From: a virus | Virus record (IMG/VR): IMGVR_UViG_3300005613_000482 | Location: 1 to 21,015 of that record | Direction: 5' to 3' (one strand) | Length of the DNA: 21,015 nucleotides | Shown: in pieces, positions 4,121-17,007 of the stretch | Layout: every line of letters begins with the position of its first letter | Position numbering within the stretch: the stretch's first letter is position 1 | Notes under the pieces: model-generated | Databases searched by the model: none | What the model saw: the letters and a program-made list of their open reading frames with translations, nothing else | Told to the model about the DNA's origin: nothing | Translations under genes and position numbers: made by a program

Positions 4121-4297
4121 ATGAAAAACACAGTAACAATATCATTAGAGAAATATGATGAATTAACTCAATCAGAGAGAGACTTGAAGATGTTATGGGA
4201 GGAAGATGGAGTTCTTAATAACCTAAATTATGACAGTCAAACAATTAATAAAAAAATTACAAATGAACACTTCAGCAGGATTAACTTGCGGATATGA
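4121..4297 (+). CDS. Small hypothetical protein with out-of-frame tail (58 aa)
   Basis: The frame runs from ATG 4121 to TGA 4295-4297 and encodes 58 residues. The first 36 or so residues look genuine (MKNTVTISLEKYDELTQSE and onward: a strand, then an acidic helix). The remaining residues are read through the start of the next gene (ATG 4230), a 68-base overlap that is unusually long for this genome. One base of shift just before 4230 would give a TAA directly ahead of the next ATG. A sequencing slip, a natural frameshift or a true long overlap are all possible. Confidence 0.5.
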   Translation: MKNTVTISLEKYDELTQSERDLKMLWEEDGVLNNLNYDSQTINKKITNEHFSRINLRI

Positions 4298-4700
4298 TTT
4301 TCTAGTGTCAAATAATAAAGTCAGTAGCGAAAATGCTAAAATAGGAATGAGAGTTTCTAAAGGTGAGGATTGGATTTACGAAGATCAAAATGATTCTAGT
4401 ACAGGAACTATAATCGCAATTGGGAAATGTAAATTCGACGAAAAAGAAATAGCTAAGGGTCAATGTGTTGTAAAATGGGATAAGGAAATTAACTTTTATA
4501 GGATTGGTGCACATGAAAGGTATGATTTATACATAGAATCATATCCATCAAAGGAAAAAGAAAAAACAATTAAAAATAAATATAAAAATTATGGAAGAAC
4601 AGAAATTAAAATACAAAGAACTGCTGGAAGAATCGAAAGAGAAGATCGAAGCAGAGGAACTATTGTCAAAAGTAGAAGATGCCGAGCTAGATGTGCGTAA
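4230..4700 (+). CDS. MIB/HERC2 domain protein
   Basis: The protein has 156 residues. Residues 38-102 match the MIB/HERC2 domain pattern closely: IGMRV, GEDW at 45-48, DQ at 52-53, GTIIAI at 59-64, VVKWD at 80-84, then YRIG at 90-93 and YDL at 98-100. In eukaryotes this small beta-rich domain occurs in the ubiquitin ligases Mind bomb and HERC2, where it binds protein partners. No RING, HECT or zinc finger is present here, so a ligase role is not supported and a protein-binding role is inferred from the family. Residues 1-37 are a separate N-terminal part. Residues 121-156 are Arg-rich and read through the next gene out of frame, so the natural protein may end near residue 115-120. Confidence 0.75.
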   Translation: MTVKQLIKKLQMNTSAGLTCGYDFLVSNNKVSSENAKIGMRVSKGEDWIYEDQNDSSTGTIIAIGKCKFDEKEIAKGQCVVKWDKEINFYRIGAHERYDLYIESYPSKEKEKTIKNKYKNYGRTEIKIQRTAGRIEREDRSRGTIVKSRRCRARCA

Positions 4701-4872
4701 TTGCATTAACAAAACAAGAAAAGCCTTAAATAGAGCGAAAAGAGAATTAAAAGAAGAATTAAGATCAGGCAGCTTTAATTACAAACAATACACTGAGAAG
4801 GAACAAGAAGTAGAAGAATTAAAACTAGGTTTAGCTAATGCTGAAAAATTCTTAAAAGAAAGATTTGATTGA
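4591..4872 (+). CDS. Coiled-coil hypothetical protein (93 aa)
   Basis: The protein has 93 residues, nearly all helical, rich in Glu, Lys and Leu, with heptad-like spacing across residues 3-90. That is the pattern of a long coiled coil or helical hairpin. It has one Cys (residue 38) and no membrane segment. The ATG follows an A-rich leader of the kind used throughout the window, and the upstream frame overlaps it by 110 bases. Forty bases downstream lies a clear intrinsic terminator, so this is the last gene of the upstream transcript. A scaffolding or adaptor role would be speculation. Confidence 0.65.
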   Translation: MEEQKLKYKELLEESKEKIEAEELLSKVEDAELDVRNCINKTRKALNRAKRELKEELRSGSFNYKQYTEKEQEVEELKLGLANAEKFLKERFD

Positions 4873-6209: not shown

Positions 6210-6611
6210 GTGGCAGGGGATAAAGATATACATAATGATCCAAAGGCCAATACGAATGGTTTTAAGCAGAATCCACAAAATATTGGCAAGGGAAGAAAAA
6301 AGAAAATATATACTATTCTTAAAGAAAAAGGGTATAACGCAGATGATATTAAAACAGCCTTTGGGGAATTAGCTTTCTATACATTGCCTGAACTAAAAGA
6401 AGTGTATAATGATGAAAGCAAACCTGTAATAACTAGAATTATAGCAAATCAGTTTTATATTGCGCTGAAAAAAGGAGAGTGGAACAGGATAAAAGAAATT
6501 CTGGAGCATGTTATCGGAAAGCCACAACCTATATTAGTTCATGACAAAAAAGAAACTGTAATTAAACTTAAATTTGACGGGATAGACACAAAAGATCTCG
6601 AAGCCAAATGA
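6210..6611 (+). CDS. terS: Terminase small subunit
   Basis: The protein has 133 residues, the usual size for a small terminase subunit. It recognises phage DNA and regulates the large subunit during packaging. Visible features are a Gly/Asn/Lys-rich N-terminus (residues 1-33), then a helical body at about 34-110 (KIYTILKEKGYNADDIKTAF and onward) that fits the small-terminase helix layout, and a short C-terminal strand region from about 115. Start: GTG 6210 is the only usual start, because an in-frame TGA stands at 6183. Its stop overlaps the ATG of the large subunit (ATGA at 6608), the classic terS-terL coupling. The call depends on this position as much as on sequence. Confidence 0.8.
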   Translation: MAGDKDIHNDPKANTNGFKQNPQNIGKGRKKKIYTILKEKGYNADDIKTAFGELAFYTLPELKEVYNDESKPVITRIIANQFYIALKKGEWNRIKEILEHVIGKPQPILVHDKKETVIKLKFDGIDTKDLEAK

Positions 6612-7858
6612 TTGTTCAATCAAACATAACTCTCCACCCTGGACAAAAAAGAATATTCAAAGAAGTTTTAAGCAGTCCAACTAGATATAATGTAATCAAT
6701 GCGACTAGACAATTTGGCAAGTCTGTATTAGGGCGGGAATTAGTAAATTGGTTCGCATTTAATTTTAAAGATTATGAAGAAAGAGTTTTAAAGCCAAAAT
6801 TCCCTACGAAAAAATGCAAGATAATTTGGACGAGTCCCACAATCCCACAAGCGAGGAAAGTTTATAAAGAGTTGGAATTGGCATGGGCTCCAATTCTGAA
6901 ATATTCCAATAAGACAGAACGAATGCTCAAGACAATTAATGATACGCAAGTACAGTTTTTTGGAGTAGATAAACCCGACAATATAAGAGGTGAAAACTGT
7001 AATTATATGATATGCGATGAATTTGCTTTCTATAAGGAAAACGTATTCAATGAAGTTCTCAGGCCGATGTTATTAGTAGAGGGTAAAATGGTTTTTTTTA
7101 TATCGACACCTAAAGGACTTAACGAGTTTTATAGATTTCATGAAAAAGGCATTTCCTCTGAATTTCCTAACTATAAGTACTCATCTGGCATTTATACAGA
7201 AAATCCATATTCGAATTTAGAAGAAATAGAAGATGCTCGTAGAACATTGCCATTAGCTATATTTGAACAGGAGTACTTAGGAAAGTTTATTGGTGAGGGA
7301 GCTACTGTGTTCGGAGACTTCGGAAGATTGTGTATTATTAACGAATGGACGGAACCAATCCCAACAATGGAATATTATAATGGCAATGATATCGCTAAAC
7401 AGAAGGACTGGACGGTTTCTACTACTATAGACAAAAATCACAAGGTTGCTCACATGCTTAGAATGAGACAAATGAATTGGCAGGCTATCATTGACGGAAT
7501 TGTTGCCGACTTAAAAAGATATAATCCCTATTCGTTGATGGAAGTGAACGGGGTAGGTGACCCGGTATACGATTTAGTCCGGAACGAATATAGCCAACTG
7601 CAATCGTTTGTCACGACCAATCAATCGAAACAATTAATCATAAGTTCATTGATAGCCAGTTGCAATGTTGGTACTTTAAAATTACCCACGAAGGAACTAT
7701 GCCCTAGTTTATATGAGCAAATGAACATGTTTACATTTGATTACTCCCCAGAGAAAAGACAAATAGTTTATAAAGCCCAAGAGGGATATCATGATGATGA
7801 TGTGATTAGTTTAGCTTTAGCGAATATGCAATACAGGAGATATAACGGCAAAATTTAA
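6608..7858 (+). CDS. terL: Terminase large subunit
   Basis: The protein has 416 residues. It is the ATPase-nuclease motor that cuts concatemeric DNA and pumps it through the portal. N-terminal ATPase: Walker A-like TRQFGKS (33-39), Walker B YMICDE (133-138) with Asp137 and Glu138, and coupling motif STPKG (166-170). C-terminal RNase H-like nuclease: GNDIAKQKDWT (259-269) with Asp261 and Asp267, MEVNG with Glu312, and HDDD (395-398) near the end. All expected acidic positions are present, so it should be active. It overlaps the small subunit by four bases. Three minus-strand genes follow, converging on its 3' end, instead of the portal gene. Confidence 0.95.
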   Translation: MIVQSNITLHPGQKRIFKEVLSSPTRYNVINATRQFGKSVLGRELVNWFAFNFKDYEERVLKPKFPTKKCKIIWTSPTIPQARKVYKELELAWAPILKYSNKTERMLKTINDTQVQFFGVDKPDNIRGENCNYMICDEFAFYKENVFNEVLRPMLLVEGKMVFFISTPKGLNEFYRFHEKGISSEFPNYKYSSGIYTENPYSNLEEIEDARRTLPLAIFEQEYLGKFIGEGATVFGDFGRLCIINEWTEPIPTMEYYNGNDIAKQKDWTVSTTIDKNHKVAHMLRMRQMNWQAIIDGIVADLKRYNPYSLMEVNGVGDPVYDLVRNEYSQLQSFVTTNQSKQLIISSLIASCNVGTLKLPTKELCPSLYEQMNMFTFDYSPEKRQIVYKAQEGYHDDDVISLALANMQYRRYNGKI

Positions 7859-7957: not shown

Positions 7958-8296
7958 TTAGTGCGTTCCGTTAACTAAAGACGCTCCATGTTTAATCCCT
8001 TCAATGAAATCGAACAAATCATAATCTGGATTTTCTTTAACAAATTTACCTATTACCATTCCTATTTCATTTCCGATATCATCCAATTTCCAAGACGCGT
8101 CATTTATCCATTTAGAAAGCGGTGAATTATTTCTTTTTAATAATTCAATTAACTCATTAGCTTCAGTTAATTGATTTTCTATTCTGTGTAATTCATTTTT
8201 GTAAGCATTTAAATTATTAGTTTCATCAGATAGTTTAGTCACTAGTTCTTCAATTATCTTATTGAATGGCTTAGTCAATGTTGATGCTTTTTTCAT
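7958..8296 (-). CDS. Hypothetical protein with coiled coil (112 aa)
   Basis: This is the last gene of a three-gene minus-strand group. The protein has 112 residues. Residues 10-55 form a charged coiled-coil-like helix (NKIIEELVTKLSDETNNLN and onward). Residues 60-112 look like a small helical domain with Trp63 and Trp69. No membrane segment is seen. It starts two bases after the stop of the putative DNA-binding gene, so the two are surely cotranscribed. The function is unknown. A partner or oligomerisation role next to a DNA-binding protein is inference. It converges with terL. Confidence 0.65.
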   Translation of the reverse strand: MKKASTLTKPFNKIIEELVTKLSDETNNLNAYKNELHRIENQLTEANELIELLKRNNSPLSKWINDASWKLDDIGNEIGMVIGKFVKENPDYDLFDFIEGIKHGASLVNGTH

Positions 8297-8298
8297 AA

Positions 8299-8514
8299 TT
8301 ATCTTAAATCTTCATTTGCAATCCTTTCAATCCGTCTCATGGTATAACCATACTTTTCAGCAATAGCTCTATACATACTTCGTTTTGATTTGCCCGGTTC
8401 TTTATTCTTTAATTTTTGAACCAATTCATATTTAACGTTAATCCGGAATTGTTGTTGATCAGTTAGACTATTCCAAGCGAACTCCAGAAAAGTTGTAGAT
8501 ACATTATTCAGCAT
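8299..8514 (-). CDS. Small putative helix-turn-helix protein (71 aa)
   Basis: The protein has 71 residues. Residues 43-70 (SKRSMYRAIAEKYGYTMRR and onward) have the shape of a helix-turn-helix: a basic helix, AIAEKYGYT as turn region, then a recognition-like helix with Arg-Arg-Ile-Glu-Arg. Residues 1-40 are helical and may dimerise. It would bind DNA, perhaps as a repressor or activator of its own operon or of the flanking promoters, which is inference. It is the middle gene of the minus-strand group, overlapping the upstream gene by 11 bases. Confidence in it being a gene is good; in the DNA-binding role, moderate. Confidence 0.65.
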   Translation of the reverse strand: MLNNVSTTFLEFAWNSLTDQQQFRINVKYELVQKLKNKEPGKSKRSMYRAIAEKYGYTMRRIERIANEDLR

Positions 8515-8872
8515 AATTCCTATAATATTTAGTGGTCCAAATTTTCTGATGTAATCCAGGTGATAATGATTCAGCTTTGTTTCTTAACATGCTTAAAAGT
8601 TCAACTGTAAATGTTAAAATTGTATCATTATCTCTTTCATGATATTCTTTTGGCTTCGAAGGCAGCCACTCTGGCCAAACGCGAATATTTAATAAATGGC
8701 TTGTGACAGATAATCTAATAGGACAATTAATATTTCCAATCCATTCTATAAGTTCAGGGGTCCAATACTTTCTTGAATTTATCTTTCTCTCCCATTCAGT
8801 TTCTCTGTAAATCTTACATCTTTCTTCATATTCAATTTGCCCATTCTTTTTATTACTTCTAAATAATTTCAT
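8504..8872 (-). CDS. Hypothetical protein, first gene of minus-strand group (122 aa)
   Basis: The protein has 122 residues, soluble, rich in Trp (seven) and Arg/Lys, mostly helical in pattern. No family is recognised. It is the first gene of the three-gene minus-strand group that splits the head module between terminase and portal. A TAnnTTTG box lies four bases before its ATG, implying a leaderless mRNA. Codon and base use look like those of the neighbours, so there is no clear sign of a recent foreign origin. Confidence 0.6.
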   Translation of the reverse strand: MKLFRSNKKNGQIEYEERCKIYRETEWERKINSRKYWTPELIEWIGNINCPIRLSVTSHLLNIRVWPEWLPSKPKEYHERDNDTILTFTVELLSMLRNKAESLSPGLHQKIWTTKYYRNYAE

Positions 8873-8957: not shown

Positions 8958-10319
8958 ATGGTTTTTTGGAATAGAAAAAAGGAAACTCCAGTAGTTAAGC
9001 AGACTACGATCCCTAATTTGCCAATCATCGAGGCATTGGGAAAAATTACCACTAATTATATAGACGTTAAGACGCGTGAAGGTCTGGCAAACACTTTTAA
9101 CACAGTGTCAGAGATTTATGCACCAATAATGTACGCAGGTTCTTCATTCTCTAATATGAAATTGAAATTGTTTGTAACTGATAAAGATGGGCAGGACATT
9201 GAGGAGATCTATTCACATGAAATTCTTAAAAAGTTATCAGCTCCTAATCCGTTGAATAATTGGAAAGATTTCCTATTGAATTATTATGTCAATAAAAAAG
9301 TATTTGGGAATGCTTATATTTTTAAATACCAACCTAGTGGATTTGAAAGCGTAGAAGATGCTGTTTTTTGGGTGTTGCCGTCTCAGTATGTTTATCCTCT
9401 TCCAACTTCAAGAAAAATGTCGACTTATTACAAAGCGACAGACAAGGACAAATTTATTAGAGGTTATAGTTTTTTTAATAGGATTGACCTTAATAAAAAA
9501 CCCAATTGGTTACCTGAAGAGATAATGCATCAAAAAGAACCTAATTTAGATTTAAATATCGCAAATCAAGAAATATGGTTCCAACTATTAGAAGGTAAAA
9601 GCCCCTTAAGTACATTAACTGAACCAATTTCTAATATCAAAGCGGCTTATGAAGCGCAGAATGTTATTTTAAAAAAGAGGGGTGCGTTAGGAATCTTGAC
9701 TCCTGAAAATTCAAAAGATGCAATAGGCAGTCTTACATTAACGCCAGAAGACAAAGAAGAATTACAAAAACAGTTTGAATCATACGGACTAGGAAAAACT
9801 GACTGGCAATACATTATCAGCAACGTACAGATGCGGTGGCAACCAATGTCAATTCCGATTAGAGAGTTACAATTATACGAAGGTGTTGAAAACAATATGA
9901 TTGCCATTTGCAACACTTTAAATTTTCCAATTTCTCTCTTAAATTATCTAAAAGGAGCTACATATAGCAATGTTAACGAATTAAAAAAATCGTTATATCA
10001 AGATAATATAATCCCAGAAGCGAATAGCTTTGTATCTGAGCTGGGGAATTTTTTAGGCTTGCCGGAAAAGAACTTAGTCTTAAAGGCAGACTTTTCGCAT
10101 ATACCTGTATTACAAGCTGATGCAAAGTTAGAAGCGGAGAAAGATCAAATAACAGTTAATACGATTTTAAAAATACAAACAGCAATTAAGGAAGGAATAT
10201 TAAATATTGAAAATGCTCAATCAATTTTGTCCAACATTCTGTCTTTTTCGGATGAAATGATTGCAGGGATGATTTCTGAGCCAATTAATAATCAAAATGA
10301 AGACGATGAACAACAATGA
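8958..10319 (+). CDS. Portal protein, HK97 family
   Basis: The protein has 453 residues, close to the usual 400-500 for HK97-type portals. It forms the dodecameric ring at one head vertex through which DNA enters and leaves and to which the tail attaches. Supporting features are the early LSAPNPLNNWKDFL region (93-106), a GNAYIFKY strand (117-124), the IMHQK site near 189-193, the EGKSPLSTL segment (212-220) that is typical of the family, and the C-terminal crown-like helices with NFPISLLNYLKGATYSN (322-338). The C-terminus is acidic (NEDDEQQ). It follows its own promoter and overlaps the protease gene by 23 bases. Confidence 0.92.
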   Translation: MVFWNRKKETPVVKQTTIPNLPIIEALGKITTNYIDVKTREGLANTFNTVSEIYAPIMYAGSSFSNMKLKLFVTDKDGQDIEEIYSHEILKKLSAPNPLNNWKDFLLNYYVNKKVFGNAYIFKYQPSGFESVEDAVFWVLPSQYVYPLPTSRKMSTYYKATDKDKFIRGYSFFNRIDLNKKPNWLPEEIMHQKEPNLDLNIANQEIWFQLLEGKSPLSTLTEPISNIKAAYEAQNVILKKRGALGILTPENSKDAIGSLTLTPEDKEELQKQFESYGLGKTDWQYIISNVQMRWQPMSIPIRELQLYEGVENNMIAICNTLNFPISLLNYLKGATYSNVNELKKSLYQDNIIPEANSFVSELGNFLGLPEKNLVLKADFSHIPVLQADAKLEAEKDQITVNTILKIQTAIKEGILNIENAQSILSNILSFSDEMIAGMISEPINNQNEDDEQQ

Positions 10320-11215: not shown

Positions 11216-12859
11216 ATGGACGAAAAAGAACAGTTAGAACAATTAAAAAATGAGATTCTTGATAAATTCAACTTGAATCTTGAAGAAAAAACTAAAGGAT
11301 TCTTAAAGCCGGAAGATGCTGATAAACTAAAAGAAAGTTTCGAAAGCACAATTAAGGCATTTAACGAAGAAGGTATAAAAGAATTTAATGAAACAATTGA
11401 AAAATTAAATTCGGAACTAGTTAGTGTAAAAGAGTTTGCAGAGGAAATCAAAGAAGTTGCTCGCAAACAAGCAATCGAAATTGATGAACTTAAAGAAGTT
11501 CCTGTTGCTGAAGTGAGAAAAAATCTCTCCAAAGAAGAGCAATTAGAATTATTAGTGAAGAATGCTTTTCATTCTGAAGAATTTAAGAAATTTGAAGGAA
11601 TGGGTTTTAAGGGTGCAACTTCAAAAATGGCACTTGATAGTGATAGCAATGGCAAGATTAATCTTGTTGACGCGTCAAGTGTAAGAGATGCTGAAAAAGC
11701 TGTAATTCCTATTACGGATCATACTGGTACAGTAATGATCAGTGAAGTATCACCTATTGTTAGGGATGATAGCCCTGCTCGTAAGAAGCATATTAGAGAC
11801 TTGTTAAGTGTTAGTGGCACTTCTGCTGCTCAGATAGTTGGTGGACAAGTAACTGATTGGACTGATGCATTGACGTTAGGAGCCACTGTATTAGCAGAGA
11901 ACACTGAAGCTCCAGAGAGTGCATTTAAGTCGCAAGAGAACACCTGGGGACTTAAGCGCATTGCTAATTCATTTAGAATTTCTAAGCGTTGGTTAAAAGT
12001 TAATGGTCTTCAGTGGGTAATTGATCATGTTTTAGCCAAACTTCCTGATGCAACTTATACGGTTGAAGATTTTGAACTATTATTTGGTGACGGGTCTGGT
12101 AATCATGTTGATGGGCTTGCGAAAAATGCACAAACTTTTGATTTAACGCCTAATGTTTATGTAATTACTGATTTTTCTACAGTAGCAACATGGAATAGCG
12201 GCACTCAATCACTTATTACATTTGCCGCAGCACATGGGATTAAGAATGGAGACAGCTTGACTATTGCTAACGCAACTCATGCAGGTTATAACGCAACTCA
12301 TACAGCTGTTGAAGTAGTTAACGCTACCCAGGTAATCATAGACGTTGCTTATGTTGCTGAAGCTGCTGGCTTAGTTGCTGCCTGGACTGGTTCGAGCCAA
12401 TCAATATTCTATCACGCGATAGACAACGCGCAAGAGTATGACGTTCTTGCTGTTGTTGAAGCATTATTGGAGGCTGGCGAATATTCAGTTAATGGCCATG
12501 TGGTTAATCCGCAGCAAGCTATTCAAATGGGATTGCTTAAGGCTACTGACGCTAATTATCTAAACATTCAGAAAGATGGGAACGGTAGAGTGATTGGAGT
12601 TAATGGGCTTCCGATAGCTACTACTACTGCAATGCCTGCTGGTAAGTTTATTAGTGGGGACTTTTCCAGAAATGGAGCTGAATTAAAAGAATTTACACCT
12701 TTCAACATTCAATTTGTTGAGGACGTTGATACTGTTAAGAAAAATGAAATAGTATTAGTTGTAGAAGAAGAAATAATTTTTCCAATCTACAATCCTTACT
12801 GGTTCGTTTATGGCAAATTTGCCGATGCTAAAACTGAGTTGGAAACTCCAGCTTCGTAA
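11216..12859 (+). CDS. Major capsid protein, HK97 fold with inserted domain
   Basis: The protein has 547 residues and forms the head shell. Residues 1-115 are a Glu/Lys-rich coiled coil, the delta-domain scaffold normally removed by the prohead protease. Residues 170-300 carry the family pattern: the strand region before WGLKRIANSFRISKRWL (244-260) and LLFGDGSGNHVDGL (288-301). The helix EYDVLAVVEALLEAG (407-421), VVNPQQAIQMGLLK (429-442) and the C-terminal strands to FPIYNPYWFVYGKF follow. Between them residues 312-397 form an extra beta-rich stretch (ITFAAAHGIKNGDSLTIANA and onward) absent from the minimal HK97 fold. Its sequence resembles small Ig-like modules of phage surface proteins. 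The length exceeds the usual 385-420, consistent with this insert plus the long delta domain. Confidence 0.92.
   Translation: MDEKEQLEQLKNEILDKFNLNLEEKTKGFLKPEDADKLKESFESTIKAFNEEGIKEFNETIEKLNSELVSVKEFAEEIKEVARKQAIEIDELKEVPVAEVRKNLSKEEQLELLVKNAFHSEEFKKFEGMGFKGATSKMALDSDSNGKINLVDASSVRDAEKAVIPITDHTGTVMISEVSPIVRDDSPARKKHIRDLLSVSGTSAAQIVGGQVTDWTDALTLGATVLAENTEAPESAFKSQENTWGLKRIANSFRISKRWLKVNGLQWVIDHVLAKLPDATYTVEDFELLFGDGSGNHVDGLAKNAQTFDLTPNVYVITDFSTVATWNSGTQSLITFAAAHGIKNGDSLTIANATHAGYNATHTAVEVVNATQVIIDVAYVAEAAGLVAAWTGSSQSIFYHAIDNAQEYDVLAVVEALLEAGEYSVNGHVVNPQQAIQMGLLKATDANYLNIQKDGNGRVIGVNGLPIATTTAMPAGKFISGDFSRNGAELKEFTPFNIQFVEDVDTVKKNEIVLVVEEEIIFPIYNPYWFVYGKFADAKTELETPAS
12268..12309 (+). repeat. 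21-bp tandem repeat inside the capsid gene
   Basis: TAACGCAACTCAT occurs at 12268-12280 and 12289-12301, giving two units of 21 bases that encode NATHAGY and NATHTAV. A third NAT follows (residues 369-371). The repeat lies in the inserted capsid domain and keeps frame. Confidence 0.75.
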
Positions 12860-12902: not shown

Positions 12903-13523
12903 ATGAAGGTAATAAATTCTAAAATAATCGAAGGCGAAAATCTGGAATTAAATTTATACAGATACTGCTTGGATTTGATGCCAAAGGGTTCATTACATGA
13001 TACTGGATGTGGGGAAGGAGACTATTCATTTATAGCAAACGAAAAAGGATTTAAGGTTACTGCTTCGGATGCCAGATTGGACAGAATTCCTAAAGAAGAA
13101 TTTAAATCAAAAGGTATAGTTTTTCAGCATTCGATAATTGAAACATTGGGGTTTAATCAAGATATAGTGTTACTATCAGGGATTTTTTACCATTTGGATG
13201 TATCTCAACAAGTCGTAGTACTCGATAATATTAGAAGGTCGAAAGCAAAAAGAATAATTCTAAACACACATTTTTATAATGAAAGTTGTAATGATGATTT
13301 TCCGAATAGATTTATACCCACAAACAAGAAATATTTCAGCGGAGCAATTTACATTGAAGGATCTAATTTAATAAATCGAACAATGGCAGCTATGCATAAT
13401 TATTATAGTTTCTGGCATGATTTGAAAAGTTTAGAAGAATTATTTCAATCTCACGAAATGGATATAGTGATGATTGATCCATTATTAACAAAAAATAGAG
13501 CATTTTTTATAGCAGAATGGTAG
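12903..13523 (+). CDS. Class I SAM-dependent methyltransferase
   Basis: The protein has 206 residues with the Rossmann-type methyltransferase layout: motif I DTGCGEGDYS (33-42) for SAM binding, an acidic residue at the end of strand 2 (Asp56 in TASDAR) for the ribose, and a strand-4 region with LLSGIFYHL (90-98). No DNA-methyltransferase DPPY or NPPY motif is present. The FYHL form is closer to small-molecule, sugar or protein O- or N-methyltransferases. It starts 13 bases after the capsid hairpin and overlaps the glycosyltransferase gene by seven bases, so a role in modifying a glycan or virion protein is a fair inference. The substrate is unknown. Confidence 0.82.
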   Translation: MKVINSKIIEGENLELNLYRYCLDLMPKGSLHDTGCGEGDYSFIANEKGFKVTASDARLDRIPKEEFKSKGIVFQHSIIETLGFNQDIVLLSGIFYHLDVSQQVVVLDNIRRSKAKRIILNTHFYNESCNDDFPNRFIPTNKKYFSGAIYIEGSNLINRTMAAMHNYYSFWHDLKSLEELFQSHEMDIVMIDPLLTKNRAFFIAEW

Positions 13524-15118
13524 TAAATAGTTACAATGTTGAGTTTGGATATGAATTAATAAGTGCATTACCTTATGCTTATTATCTTCATTCAATTGGT
13601 CAGCTCGAAAAAACAATTTCAGGCAACGACACTGAATGTTTATACTATTTTTCGCCAAAACACGAAATAAACAAGGAAGTAAGAAGTTGGTATAATACGC
13701 CCAAGGCTGTTAAAATTCCAAATATTGATATCCATAAACCATATTTAAACAAGGAACAGTTTTTAGCGCCACCTCTAAAAAAACATTACGCTAATAAGCG
13801 TTTCAAATTCAAAAAAGAAACTATAGTTATATGCAATAGGCACAATATCGAGTGGGGCAAAAAACCAATTAATTATTTCAACTTGACGGTTTTACGTGAA
13901 ATGTTTAAGCTATTACAAGGTAATTACCAAATTGTATATATAAATATAGATGGGATTCCTGAATTATATGATAATGCACCTCCTATTAAGCTAGGAGATT
14001 ATGAATTGCTAAAAAAATATCCAGGTGTAATAAATATACATGATTTGCACAGAAAAAATAAAGATCTCTCATTCAATGAATTGCAATTAATGATTTTTGC
14101 TAATTGTAGTAAATTTATTACAATGAACGGTGGGCACTCTATTTTAGCAAGTTATTTTGGAGGCGACAATATAATTATGAGCAAACATGGTACCCCTGAG
14201 ACAAGGGAAATCAATCCAGCAATTAATTCATTCTATCGATGGTACAATGAATTTGGCGGATCTAGAATAAGACATGTTGTAAATGAAAATAAATTAATAG
14301 AAGCGATTAGAACACAATGGATTGAAAAAGAACCTGTAATTAATATTTTGGTAAGAACATCAGGAAGAGTTAATTATTTCAAAAGATGCATCGAATCAAT
14401 AAGGAGACAAACATATACAAATGTAAATGTATTTTGCTGCATTGATTTTTGTGATGTTAAAAGCAAATATGATTACACTGTAAAGTATCCTGTGTATACA
14501 ATAGCTGTGAAAAAGTATACTCATGTGGATGATGCGCCAAAAAAAGAAATGTACGGGAAGAAATTTCCATACAACTTATATTTTAATACACTTCATGAGA
14601 AGGTAAAGGAAGGGGTTATAATGTATCTTGACGATGATGATATATTGCATTCACCTGACACGTTAAAAATGATTGCAAGGGAATTTAAAAGGGGGGGAGA
14701 CCTTGTTTTTTGGAAAGTTAAAAGTGGCGAAAGGGTCATTCCCAGTAAAAAGAATTTCGGCAAAGCACCTGTATGTTGTGATATATCAGGAATTGGATTC
14801 GCTTTTAATAGCAAATATAAAAAATATGCAGAGTGGGAACCATACAAACGAGGTGACTACAGAATTGCAACAAAATTATACAATAAGATAAAAAAAATAA
14901 AATTCATTGATGCGATATTAACTAGTACCCAAAATGGGCAACATAGTGGAAGCAACTCTGATTATAAATTTCCGATTAGTGTAAATTCAGGCGATTGGTA
15001 TATAAGAAGTGATGGGAAATATTGGTTTGGAGACTCAAGCGTAGTAAAGAAAAGAATTGCATCAGGTGAAATGAGAAAAGTTAAAATTGAAGATGTACCA
15101 GAAGAATTTAAAAAGTAA
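13517..15118 (+). CDS. Two-domain glycosyltransferase
   Basis: The protein has 533 residues. The C-terminal domain (about 274-480) is a family 2 GT-A glycosyltransferase: INILVRTSGRVNYFKRCIES (275-294), the RQTY turn (297-300), and YLDDDDILHSPD (370-381) with the metal- and nucleotide-sugar-binding DDDD at 372-375; RGDYRI (445-450) may supply the catalytic base. The N-terminal domain (1-265) has a different pattern, beginning VEFGYELISALPYAYYL (8-24) and with ITMNGGHSILASYFGG (201-216), which recalls GT-B-like transferases. It could thus add two sugars in turn. No membrane segment is present. It overlaps the methyltransferase gene, and fibre genes follow. The target could be the capsid, the fibre or a host glycan. 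Confidence 0.82.
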   Translation: MVVNSYNVEFGYELISALPYAYYLHSIGQLEKTISGNDTECLYYFSPKHEINKEVRSWYNTPKAVKIPNIDIHKPYLNKEQFLAPPLKKHYANKRFKFKKETIVICNRHNIEWGKKPINYFNLTVLREMFKLLQGNYQIVYINIDGIPELYDNAPPIKLGDYELLKKYPGVINIHDLHRKNKDLSFNELQLMIFANCSKFITMNGGHSILASYFGGDNIIMSKHGTPETREINPAINSFYRWYNEFGGSRIRHVVNENKLIEAIRTQWIEKEPVINILVRTSGRVNYFKRCIESIRRQTYTNVNVFCCIDFCDVKSKYDYTVKYPVYTIAVKKYTHVDDAPKKEMYGKKFPYNLYFNTLHEKVKEGVIMYLDDDDILHSPDTLKMIAREFKRGGDLVFWKVKSGERVIPSKKNFGKAPVCCDISGIGFAFNSKYKKYAEWEPYKRGDYRIATKLYNKIKKIKFIDAILTSTQNGQHSGSNSDYKFPISVNSGDWYIRSDGKYWFGDSSVVKKRIASGEMRKVKIEDVPEEFKK

Positions 15119-15121
15119 ATT

Positions 15122-15268
15122 ATGAAAATGACAATTGAAGGAAAAGAAAAATTAGTAAAGAAACTTAGAAAAGAATTGAGATACCGATTACGAAATGATG
15201 GGATTACAATGAAAGAAGTTGAAGAGGAGGCGCCAAAAAAGAAAAGAAGGAGAAAGGCTGATAAATGA
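15122..15268 (+). CDS. Small basic hypothetical protein (48 aa)
   Basis: The frame runs from ATG 15122 to TGA 15266-15268 and encodes 48 residues: a Lys/Arg-rich helix, an acidic stretch (KEVEEEAPK) and a strongly basic tail (KKKRRRKADK). It starts three bases after the glycosyltransferase stop and overlaps the next gene by four bases (ATGA at 15265). The double linkage makes it likely to be real. The basic tail could bind nucleic acid or the capsid interior, but this is only a guess from charge. Confidence 0.5.
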   Translation: MKMTIEGKEKLVKKLRKELRYRLRNDGITMKEVEEEAPKKKRRRKADK

Positions 15269-15450
15269 GATTTCATTTCATAGAATTAACAAATGGACAA
15301 GTTGTAGAAACTATGTTTGAGGCAGGTGAAAATTCGCAGCAAAAAACAACATTTACCGGATTTGATTTTAAAAGTTTAACAAATGGTAAAATTTCAAAAA
15401 AAATTGCATTTGTTGACGAAAATGGAGATCAAATAAAATTATTCATGTAG
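15265..15450 (+). CDS. Small protein of two tandem fibre-type modules (61 aa)
   Basis: The protein has 61 residues made almost entirely of two copies of one module: residues 3-30 start FHFIELTNGQVV and residues 33-60 start FDFKSLTNGKIS, the second continuing IAFVDENGDQIKLF. The same module forms residues 4-31 of the fibre-like protein encoded three bases downstream. It is probably a virion component or an adaptor that shares an attachment site or assembly partner with the fibre, which is inference from the shared module. The pattern suggests a small beta-strand pair with an NG turn. No family name is known to me. Confidence 0.65.
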   Translation: MRFHFIELTNGQVVETMFEAGENSQQKTTFTGFDFKSLTNGKISKKIAFVDENGDQIKLFM

Positions 15451-15453
15451 CAA

Positions 15454-17007
15454 ATGGACAAATTCGAATTTATAGAGTTAACAAACGGCAAACGGGTACA
15501 AGCTATTGCACTTGTTGATGCTAATGGTAATCAAATTACAACAGCATCATTTATTGGTGGGTCTGTTGCTGATTACTCATCATTGCCAGCAGCAGCGGAT
15601 CACGTAGGCGAAGTATGGTACTGCCAGGCAGGCAGTGGTGGATTGCTTTCAGTTGTTGGCTCTTATAAATATCCTAAAGGATTCTATTCGCCAAACGCGC
15701 TAAGTGCGTGGGAACTAGTGCCAATGAATGTTAAAGTTGCAGAAGATTCGACGACTATTATTAATATACAAAATTGGAGTGAGTTTGTTGCTTACTCATT
15801 TGAAATTAACGAAGGCGATAGAATAGTTTATAATAAAGTTATTTACGAAAATTTAACATCAGCATTAAGTGCGACTAATCCAAGTTTGGATACAACAAAT
15901 TGGAGACCGATATTAGATATTGAAGACGGCACCGCCGCTGGCCAGATGATATTTTGGGACGGCACCAAATGGGCGCGAACTGAAATAACGGAAATCTACT
16001 GGGACGACACCGATAAGAGGTTGGCATTAGGAACTTCAGATACTAACATAAGTATAGGCAATCAATCCCGAGGTGTTGTAGTAAAAGCTTTATTAACATC
16101 TGAAATTATAGCTTACGGAGCAGAACTTTATTCTAACACGTCACAATTATCGCCTGTTTTTTTGTCAGCGAGAGGACGCGGAACATCTGACACTCCTGTT
16201 ATCGTGCAGAATGGGGACGATTTGGGACGCTGGGTAGGTGCCGGATTTGATGGCACTAATTATGCGCAATCAACTTATATATTGTTTGAAGTTGATGGGA
16301 CTCCGGGGACAAATGATATGCCTGGTAGAATTAGGTTTGGTACAACCCCGGATGGGGCACAAATTCCAGTAGAGCGTATGAGAGTTGAAAGTAATGGACA
16401 CACCAGAATTGGAGACATTACAGGCGGAAATTATACAGAAACTGAAGCGGATGGTACTGTTAAATTTGAGGGGAATGCTACGGTTTGGGATGATGCAAAC
16501 GTAGGAGCTTATAATTTACAAGCACCTGCTGGTTTACAACCAGATATAGATGAGTTTAAAGACAAAAATGGTGTTGATACGGGCATTGCCACTTATGCAG
16601 TTGATACGGGGGAAGAATTAAGTGGGAGTATTGAAATTCCACATTCATATAAAGAAGGATCAGACATAACATTTCATGTCCATTGGCAAGGTATAATTGC
16701 GCCAACTGGTACTGATAATGTCCAATTCCAATTAAATTACACGGCTGCATCAGCTATTGTCGGTACTACATTAGACCCTGTAACCACAATTGTGGTAGAG
16801 ACTGGAATAGATACACAATATGGAGTTTATAGATCAGATTTTCCAACAATAACAGGTACTAATTTCAAAATAGGAGATCAGTTTTTGTTTACACTCGGCA
16901 GAATAGCAGCTAATACAAATGAATACGCAGGAGATGCATTGTTAGCAACTGTGGGATTTCATTACGAAGCTGACACAGTAGGTTCACGGCAAATAACAGT
17001 AAAATGA
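15454..17007 (+). CDS. Fibre-like virion protein, probably head or tail fibre
   Basis: The protein has 517 residues, Gly, Thr and Asn-rich, mainly beta. Residues 4-31 are the short module shared with the preceding protein. Residues 41-90 (YSSLPAAADHVGEVWYC and onward) resemble a module frequent in Bacteroidetes phage fibres. Residues 108-152 (GDRIVYNKVIYENL and the Pro-x-x-x-x-x-x-W end) fit a small carbohydrate-binding-module pattern. Residues 200-330 look repetitive and beta-rich. Residues about 335-517, with VWDD and HSYKEGSDITFHVHW (395-409), match a C-terminal domain common in phage structural proteins of unknown role. A location between capsid and connector genes favours a head fibre; receptor binding is likely. 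It overlaps the connector gene by four bases. Confidence 0.75.
   Translation: MDKFEFIELTNGKRVQAIALVDANGNQITTASFIGGSVADYSSLPAAADHVGEVWYCQAGSGGLLSVVGSYKYPKGFYSPNALSAWELVPMNVKVAEDSTTIINIQNWSEFVAYSFEINEGDRIVYNKVIYENLTSALSATNPSLDTTNWRPILDIEDGTAAGQMIFWDGTKWARTEITEIYWDDTDKRLALGTSDTNISIGNQSRGVVVKALLTSEIIAYGAELYSNTSQLSPVFLSARGRGTSDTPVIVQNGDDLGRWVGAGFDGTNYAQSTYILFEVDGTPGTNDMPGRIRFGTTPDGAQIPVERMRVESNGHTRIGDITGGNYTETEADGTVKFEGNATVWDDANVGAYNLQAPAGLQPDIDEFKDKNGVDTGIATYAVDTGEELSGSIEIPHSYKEGSDITFHVHWQGIIAPTGTDNVQFQLNYTAASAIVGTTLDPVTTIVVETGIDTQYGVYRSDFPTITGTNFKIGDQFLFTLGRIAANTNEYAGDALLATVGFHYEADTVGSRQITVK

Follow-up and report, generated by a model that had tools for sequence, protein, structure and literature searches.

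Does a domain of the kind found in eukaryotic ubiquitin ligases really occur in a phage gene, and what might it do there? The MIB/HERC2 domain has been known mainly from eukaryotic E3 ligases, in which it serves to bind the target, and the first-pass annotation of the window (the whole 21,015-nt stretch analysed here, a linear IMG/VR fragment of 21 kb) had proposed such a domain in a short phage protein, acting as a recognition device of its own. The profile match and the predicted fold confirm the domain as a true MIB/HERC2 domain. The surrounding sequence and the relatives found in other phages suggest a wider picture, in which the domain belongs to an overlapping two-gene unit. The features concerned are the following.

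4230-4700, plus strand: ORF with the MIB/HERC2 domain (ORF list)
4305..4700, plus strand: gene with the MIB/HERC2 domain, 131 aa from GTG 4305 (ORF list, sequence)
4344..4535, plus strand: MIB/HERC2 domain (PF06701, predicted barrel)
4536..4700, plus strand: tail of the MIB protein, rich in Lys and Arg, with the final 110 nt overprinted on CC
4591..4700, plus strand: MIB-CC overlap, 110 nt, relative frame +1
4591..4872, plus strand: partner gene CC, encoding a 93-aa helical-hairpin protein and shifted to frame +1 with respect to MIB
6608..7858, plus strand: terminase large subunit (PF03237, 47.2 bits; phrog_2, 147.8 bits)
8958..10319, plus strand: portal protein (PF04860, 103.4 bits)

The likeliest start codon of the MIB gene is GTG 4305, with ATG 4263 and ATG 4230 as alternatives; it is favoured because it does not run into the preceding ORF, which stops at 4297, and because it agrees with the N-termini of the relatives. 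Downstream of the gene lie a probable small terminase gene, at a distance of approximately 1.5 kb, and terL, at approximately 1.9 kb, and the matches to the terminase large subunit (47.2 bits) and the portal protein (103.4 bits) bear out its phage origin.

Other parts of the window show peculiarities of their own. Between terL and the portal gene, three minus-strand ORFs (7958-8872) interrupt the plus-strand packaging operon, and the contig L002 has sequences similar to two of them in the same place. Directly after the ORF at 11216-12859, taken as the capsid protein gene, the region 12903-15118 contains an ORF resembling SAM methyltransferases and another of 533 aa whose C-terminal part resembles glycosyltransferases (read by eye, with only a weak PHROG match); virion glycosylation is a possible role. 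At 15265-17007, a 61-aa ORF and the following 517-aa ORF, possibly a tail fibre gene, both start with FxFIELTNGxxV, as if the start of the longer ORF had been duplicated.

Identity, predicted fold and rarity of the domain

Searched as DNA, the record matches PF06701 at 4344-4535 on the plus strand (model positions 1-64 of 66; 43.6 bits, E 5.9e-13), and the translated ORF compared with all of Pfam scores 42.1 bits (E 8.3e-11); both values exceed the curated cut-off of 33.5 bits, and 0 of 14 control genomes gave a match to this model. All motifs from which the domain had first been proposed (IGMRV, GEDW, EDQ, GTI, VVKWD, YRIG, and YDL) are in frame, the core motif G-x-[RK]-V-x-x-G-x-D-W ... V-x-W ... 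Y-R ... L is present, and the residues G, V, D, W, G, V, W, Y, and L are invariant among 19 aligned domains including that of the window. MIB_HERC2 is the sole domain found in the ORF by the Pfam search, which detected neither a RING nor a HECT catalytic domain, in keeping with the expectation that the ligase part is absent. Among PDB sequences, phmmer matched HECTD1 and MIB1 alone, and these weakly (E 0.009-0.015).

AlphaFold2, run on an alignment of 19 sequences from phage relatives and one Planctomycetota protein, predicted the SH3-like barrel expected of the family, with pLDDT values per block of about 83-94 over most of its length and one block at 61; confidence was low in the tail of the MIB protein (pLDDT 55-63). 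The Foldseek search with this barrel gave no match at E 0.001, and its top-ranked structures were those of the Mind bomb 1 MZM region (4xi6 and 4xi7; probability 1.00, E 0.015-0.027), the best matches including the complex of Mind bomb 1 with the Jagged1 N-box peptide. VIA-align superposed the model on 4xi7 with Z 7.3 and rmsd 3.0 (67 residues, 30% identity) and on HECTD1 3dkm with Z 6.8 (67 residues, 33% identity). An artefact or chance match was ruled out by the profile scores above the cut-off together with the Foldseek match to Mind bomb 1. Other SH3-type barrels (Tudor, KOW, PWWP, and Spt5/NusG) score nearly equally in the fold list, so membership of the family rests jointly on profile, motifs, and sequence identity.

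SH3-like barrels may bind nucleic acid too. The window protein might thus be a nucleic-acid-binding or structural accessory, with a KOW/Tudor-like barrel and a basic tail serving packaging or gene expression near the terminase genes. Consistent with such a role are the Lys/Arg-rich tail, the KOW, PWWP, and Spt5/NusG barrels in the fold list at Z ~6, and the location of the gene ahead of the terminase genes; however, MIB/HERC2 domains are its nearest matches in sequence and rank among the top ones in structure, and elsewhere the domain is found on AAA+ or caspase-like proteins. We judge this role unlikely, though a live alternative.

The domain appears to be rare in prokaryotes and their viruses. 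Single-sequence searches of viral and genome collections yielded no close relatives of the window protein. With tblastn, we found no match to the window protein, a phage relative, or the consensus MIB domain in 50,697 phage records; the 72,556 plasmids likewise contained no match to the first or the last of these queries. Degenerate patterns and alignments, scanned against 2.9 million viral contigs, recovered approximately 15 carrier contigs, which is a lower bound because the patterns were strict; two further DNA-pattern matches (L016 and L018) were judged to be due to chance. The alignment scan of the genome collection retrieved only a protein of a Planctomycetota genome (L005), and this genome was also the only one of 246 Planctomycetota genomes with PF06701 above the cut-off. 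These few carriers agree with the earlier suggestion that the protein belongs to a rare prokaryotic and phage set, and our search of the open-access literature found no paper describing a MIB/HERC2 domain in phages.

A partner gene overlapping in the +1 frame

The protein encoded by the CC gene is predicted to form a long helical hairpin (pLDDT 89), and its gene begins within the tail-coding part of the MIB gene. Similar overlaps are found in other phages: 110 nt in the window, 200 nt in L012/L074 (contig G250), 161 nt in L017 (contig G254), and 221 nt in L069-L073, the relative frame always being +1. When the viral collection was searched with CC only, using the aligned sequences of the window, G250, and G254 as query, six loci were obtained, and in all six an overlapping MIB gene lies directly upstream. 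As five of these loci belong to near-identical phages (L069-L073) and the remaining one (L074) is part of the G250 contig, from which a query row was taken, this search adds one new lineage, which is related to G250.

We found no similarity of the window's TerL and portal proteins to the G250 and G254 contigs, nor did the other proteins of the window have detectable relatives in the contigs compared. The MIB-CC pair thus recurs in three otherwise dissimilar phage groups. The contig closest to the window is L002, with 81% TerL identity, which ends short of the MIB region.

Whether the overlap is under selection was assessed with an openness test, devised after the overlap had been noticed, in which 20,000 recoded versions of each CC protein were generated from the codon usage of the respective contigs, and the open length of the upstream frame was compared. 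In the window, the MIB frame is open for 108 nt into CC, with P 0.0047 under this synonymous-codon randomisation. The openness of the upstream frame in G250 was reached in 0 of 20,000 randomisations (P <5e-5), and the corresponding values were P 0.002 for G254, 5e-5 for L069, and 0.0016 for gp047 of the Cellulophaga phage phi38:1, discussed below; for gp049 of the same phage, openness was within expectation (P 0.085). The tests are not all independent, since G250 and L069 are related. Synonymous-site conservation between G250 and L069 did not differ significantly (38/41 vs 30/35 identical codons, P 0.46). The idea that the MIB tail is a meaningless out-of-frame translation was dropped, as five of the six overlaps stay open for longer than the randomisation allows, and the MIB-CC overlap is probably functional.

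An overlap of this kind could also represent programmed +1 frameshifting, yielding a MIB-CC fusion instead of two separate proteins. The relative frame of +1 in every case and the upstream frame remaining open far inside CC are what such a mechanism would produce, but each CC gene begins with a start codon of its own, we identified no slippery site, and the CC frame is open for just 4 codons upstream of the ATG in G250 and G254, so that a frameshift would need to fall within CC itself. We regard a fusion as quite improbable.

CC homologues are also present in the Cellulophaga phages phi38:1, phi40:1, and Calle. In phi38:1, there are two copies homologous to the CC of the window (gp048 and an ORF after gp047), each overlapped in the +1 frame by the gene upstream. 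Unlike in the window, the proteins encoded upstream of these copies lack a MIB/HERC2 domain, even at E 1 and by profile search. As CC and the overlap thus also occur without MIB, they look like the constant element of this arrangement, with the MIB domain as one of several front ends. The gp numbers used in PMC13288928 denote products other than the phi38:1 genes compared here. The second copy (L078, 5298-6204) is a 90-aa ORF sharing 182 nt with the end of gp047, in the +1 frame, and a member of the CC family (5e-15); the phi38:1 annotation lacks it, and Calle_1 has a shorter gene at this position.

Domain architectures in relatives and the AAA+ link

Variability is also found in the proteins that carry the domain. 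Small stand-alone MIB proteins occur in the window and in G258, tandem MIB paralogues in G003, G251/G252, and G257, and combinations with other SH3-like or unassigned segments in G254, G256, and G250. In L003 (G002), the domain forms the N-terminus of an AAA_5 ATPase (MIB 33.7 bits, AAA_5 39.4 bits) encoded beside a DUF7192 gene, and L081 encodes a 788-aa MIB protein with the string RHEIEHF, by eye a possible HExxH metallopeptidase motif. The Planctomycetota MAG protein L005 has two MIB/HERC2 copies (111.5 bits in all) and a caspase-like Peptidase_C14 domain.

Several of these proteins share further segments. In G251 and G258, phages of ~135 kb, approximately 30 small proteins (L013 1-5500, L022 1-8712; L040-L046, L056-L062), several MIB proteins among them, have unlike N-terminal domains and a common helix like YNIxxIxxNLDKLExKL at or near the very C-terminal end; the helix was absent from the other contigs compared and could be a common docking or packaging tag. 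The tandem MIB-like paralogues at L004 6530-8503 have a common N-terminal, not C-terminal, helix like NTFVMERLVDVWGELNGC, and at L019 10918-11916 (G256) two tandem SH3-like repeats precede the MIB domain, their linker FEPYEEPRMVTTCDIG being repeated exactly.

Besides the fusion in L003, AAA+ ATPases are found in the neighbourhood of some MIB genes. The gene order in G250 is MIB, CC, a MoxR-like ATPase (MoxR/CobS-like), and a vWA/CobT-like gene; G257 encodes both MoxR-like and vWA-like proteins ~8 kb from MIB, and an AAA-family ATPase is encoded near the MIB array in G251 and G258. CobS/CobT-like genes are an established phage family. A universal AAA+ link was nevertheless ruled out: tblastn showed no MoxR similarity in the window, a 21-kb fragment, or in G254, and L069-type contigs of up to 112 kb had no AAA_5 match, so the AAA+ partner is not obligatory. 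For the MoxR-vWA pair of jumbo phages, a role in virion assembly has been proposed, with the tail assembly of ATV cited beside it (PMC7824862). The MIB-CC pair of G250 lies directly before genes of this kind, and L003 fuses MIB to AAA_5; in contrast, the consulted passages on the published pairs mention no MIB/HERC2 domain, and the window itself shows no such ATPase.

Against this background, the earlier proposal is right about a small MIB protein lacking a ligase part, and recognition of a host or phage protein would be a reasonable role, but the idea of a lone device is incomplete, given the conserved out-of-frame CC overlap and, elsewhere, the AAA+ fusion, the MoxR/vWA-like neighbours, and the tandem paralogue arrays.

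Putative function and comparison with known systems

A protein acting on its own could serve in host takeover or counter-defence if its domain sequestered one host protein, with no need for an enzyme partner. The small, single-domain MIB protein without a catalytic part would suit this task, and the diverging tandem paralogues of G003 and G251 resemble a fast-evolving recognition repertoire. Still, the protein had no match in a defence-protein library, which comprises defence systems and not their inhibitors, and the conserved overlapping CC and the enzyme fusions suggest more than sequestration; we thus consider this explanation possible, although rather unlikely.

The explanation we prefer, giving it about even chances, is a target-recognition adaptor, in which a peptide-binding MIB/HERC2 domain and CC form a two-gene unit, the domain being attached in some relatives to protein-remodelling or probable protein-cutting parts. 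The MZM region of Mind bomb 1 (MIB/HERC2-ZZ-MIB/HERC2) binds the N-box peptide of its ligand (PMC11887331). The phage domain retains the core residues and the predicted fold of the family; by analogy with Mind bomb 1, its barrel may recognise a short peptide motif in one particular protein of the phage or the host. The basic tail and the helical-hairpin CC protein would make up the two-gene unit, their pairing resting on synteny and a physical MIB-CC interaction being our inference, and the CC hairpin may serve as a coupler or oligomeriser. In the window's phage, a downstream enzyme, if one is encoded beyond the 21-kb fragment, may act together with MIB. The occurrence of CC without MIB in phi38:1 weighs against this adaptor-with-partner picture, as do the missing MoxR or AAA_5 matches in the window, G254, and the L069-type contigs and the ability of SH3-like barrels to bind nucleic acid. 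Since some other phages couple the domain to a part that remodels or probably cuts proteins, the general job of phage MIB/HERC2 domains is likely target selection for such machinery. A bolder extension, which we hold to be unlikely, is that they are interchangeable recognition subunits of ubiquitin-independent AAA+ unfoldase/peptidase machines of phages, with MIB and a coiled-coil coupler overlapping deliberately and arrays widening the range of targets.

Phage MIB/HERC2 domains without ubiquitin machinery, joined in related proteins to AAA+ modules or probable peptidases, suggest ubiquitin-independent target recognition, and the MIB protein of the window, small, expressible, and with CC as candidate partner, offers a means of testing it.

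Among known systems, the Planctomycetota protein L005 has the domain family in common with the phage protein, in two copies, but is bacterial, about 1,400-1,500 aa long, and carries a Peptidase_C14 domain. The MZM region of MIB1 (4xi6/4xi7) and HECTD1 (3dkm, 2dk3) share the core motif, the Pfam model, and the SH3-like fold with the phage domain, at about 30% identity over 67-70 aligned residues. In contrast to these ligases, the phage protein comes from a prokaryotic virus and is a single-domain protein without RING, HECT, ZZ, or ankyrin domains, with a basic, overprinted tail. The domain family itself is thus already known, and what is new here is a phage MIB/HERC2 protein as a putative adaptor in an overlapping two-gene unit.
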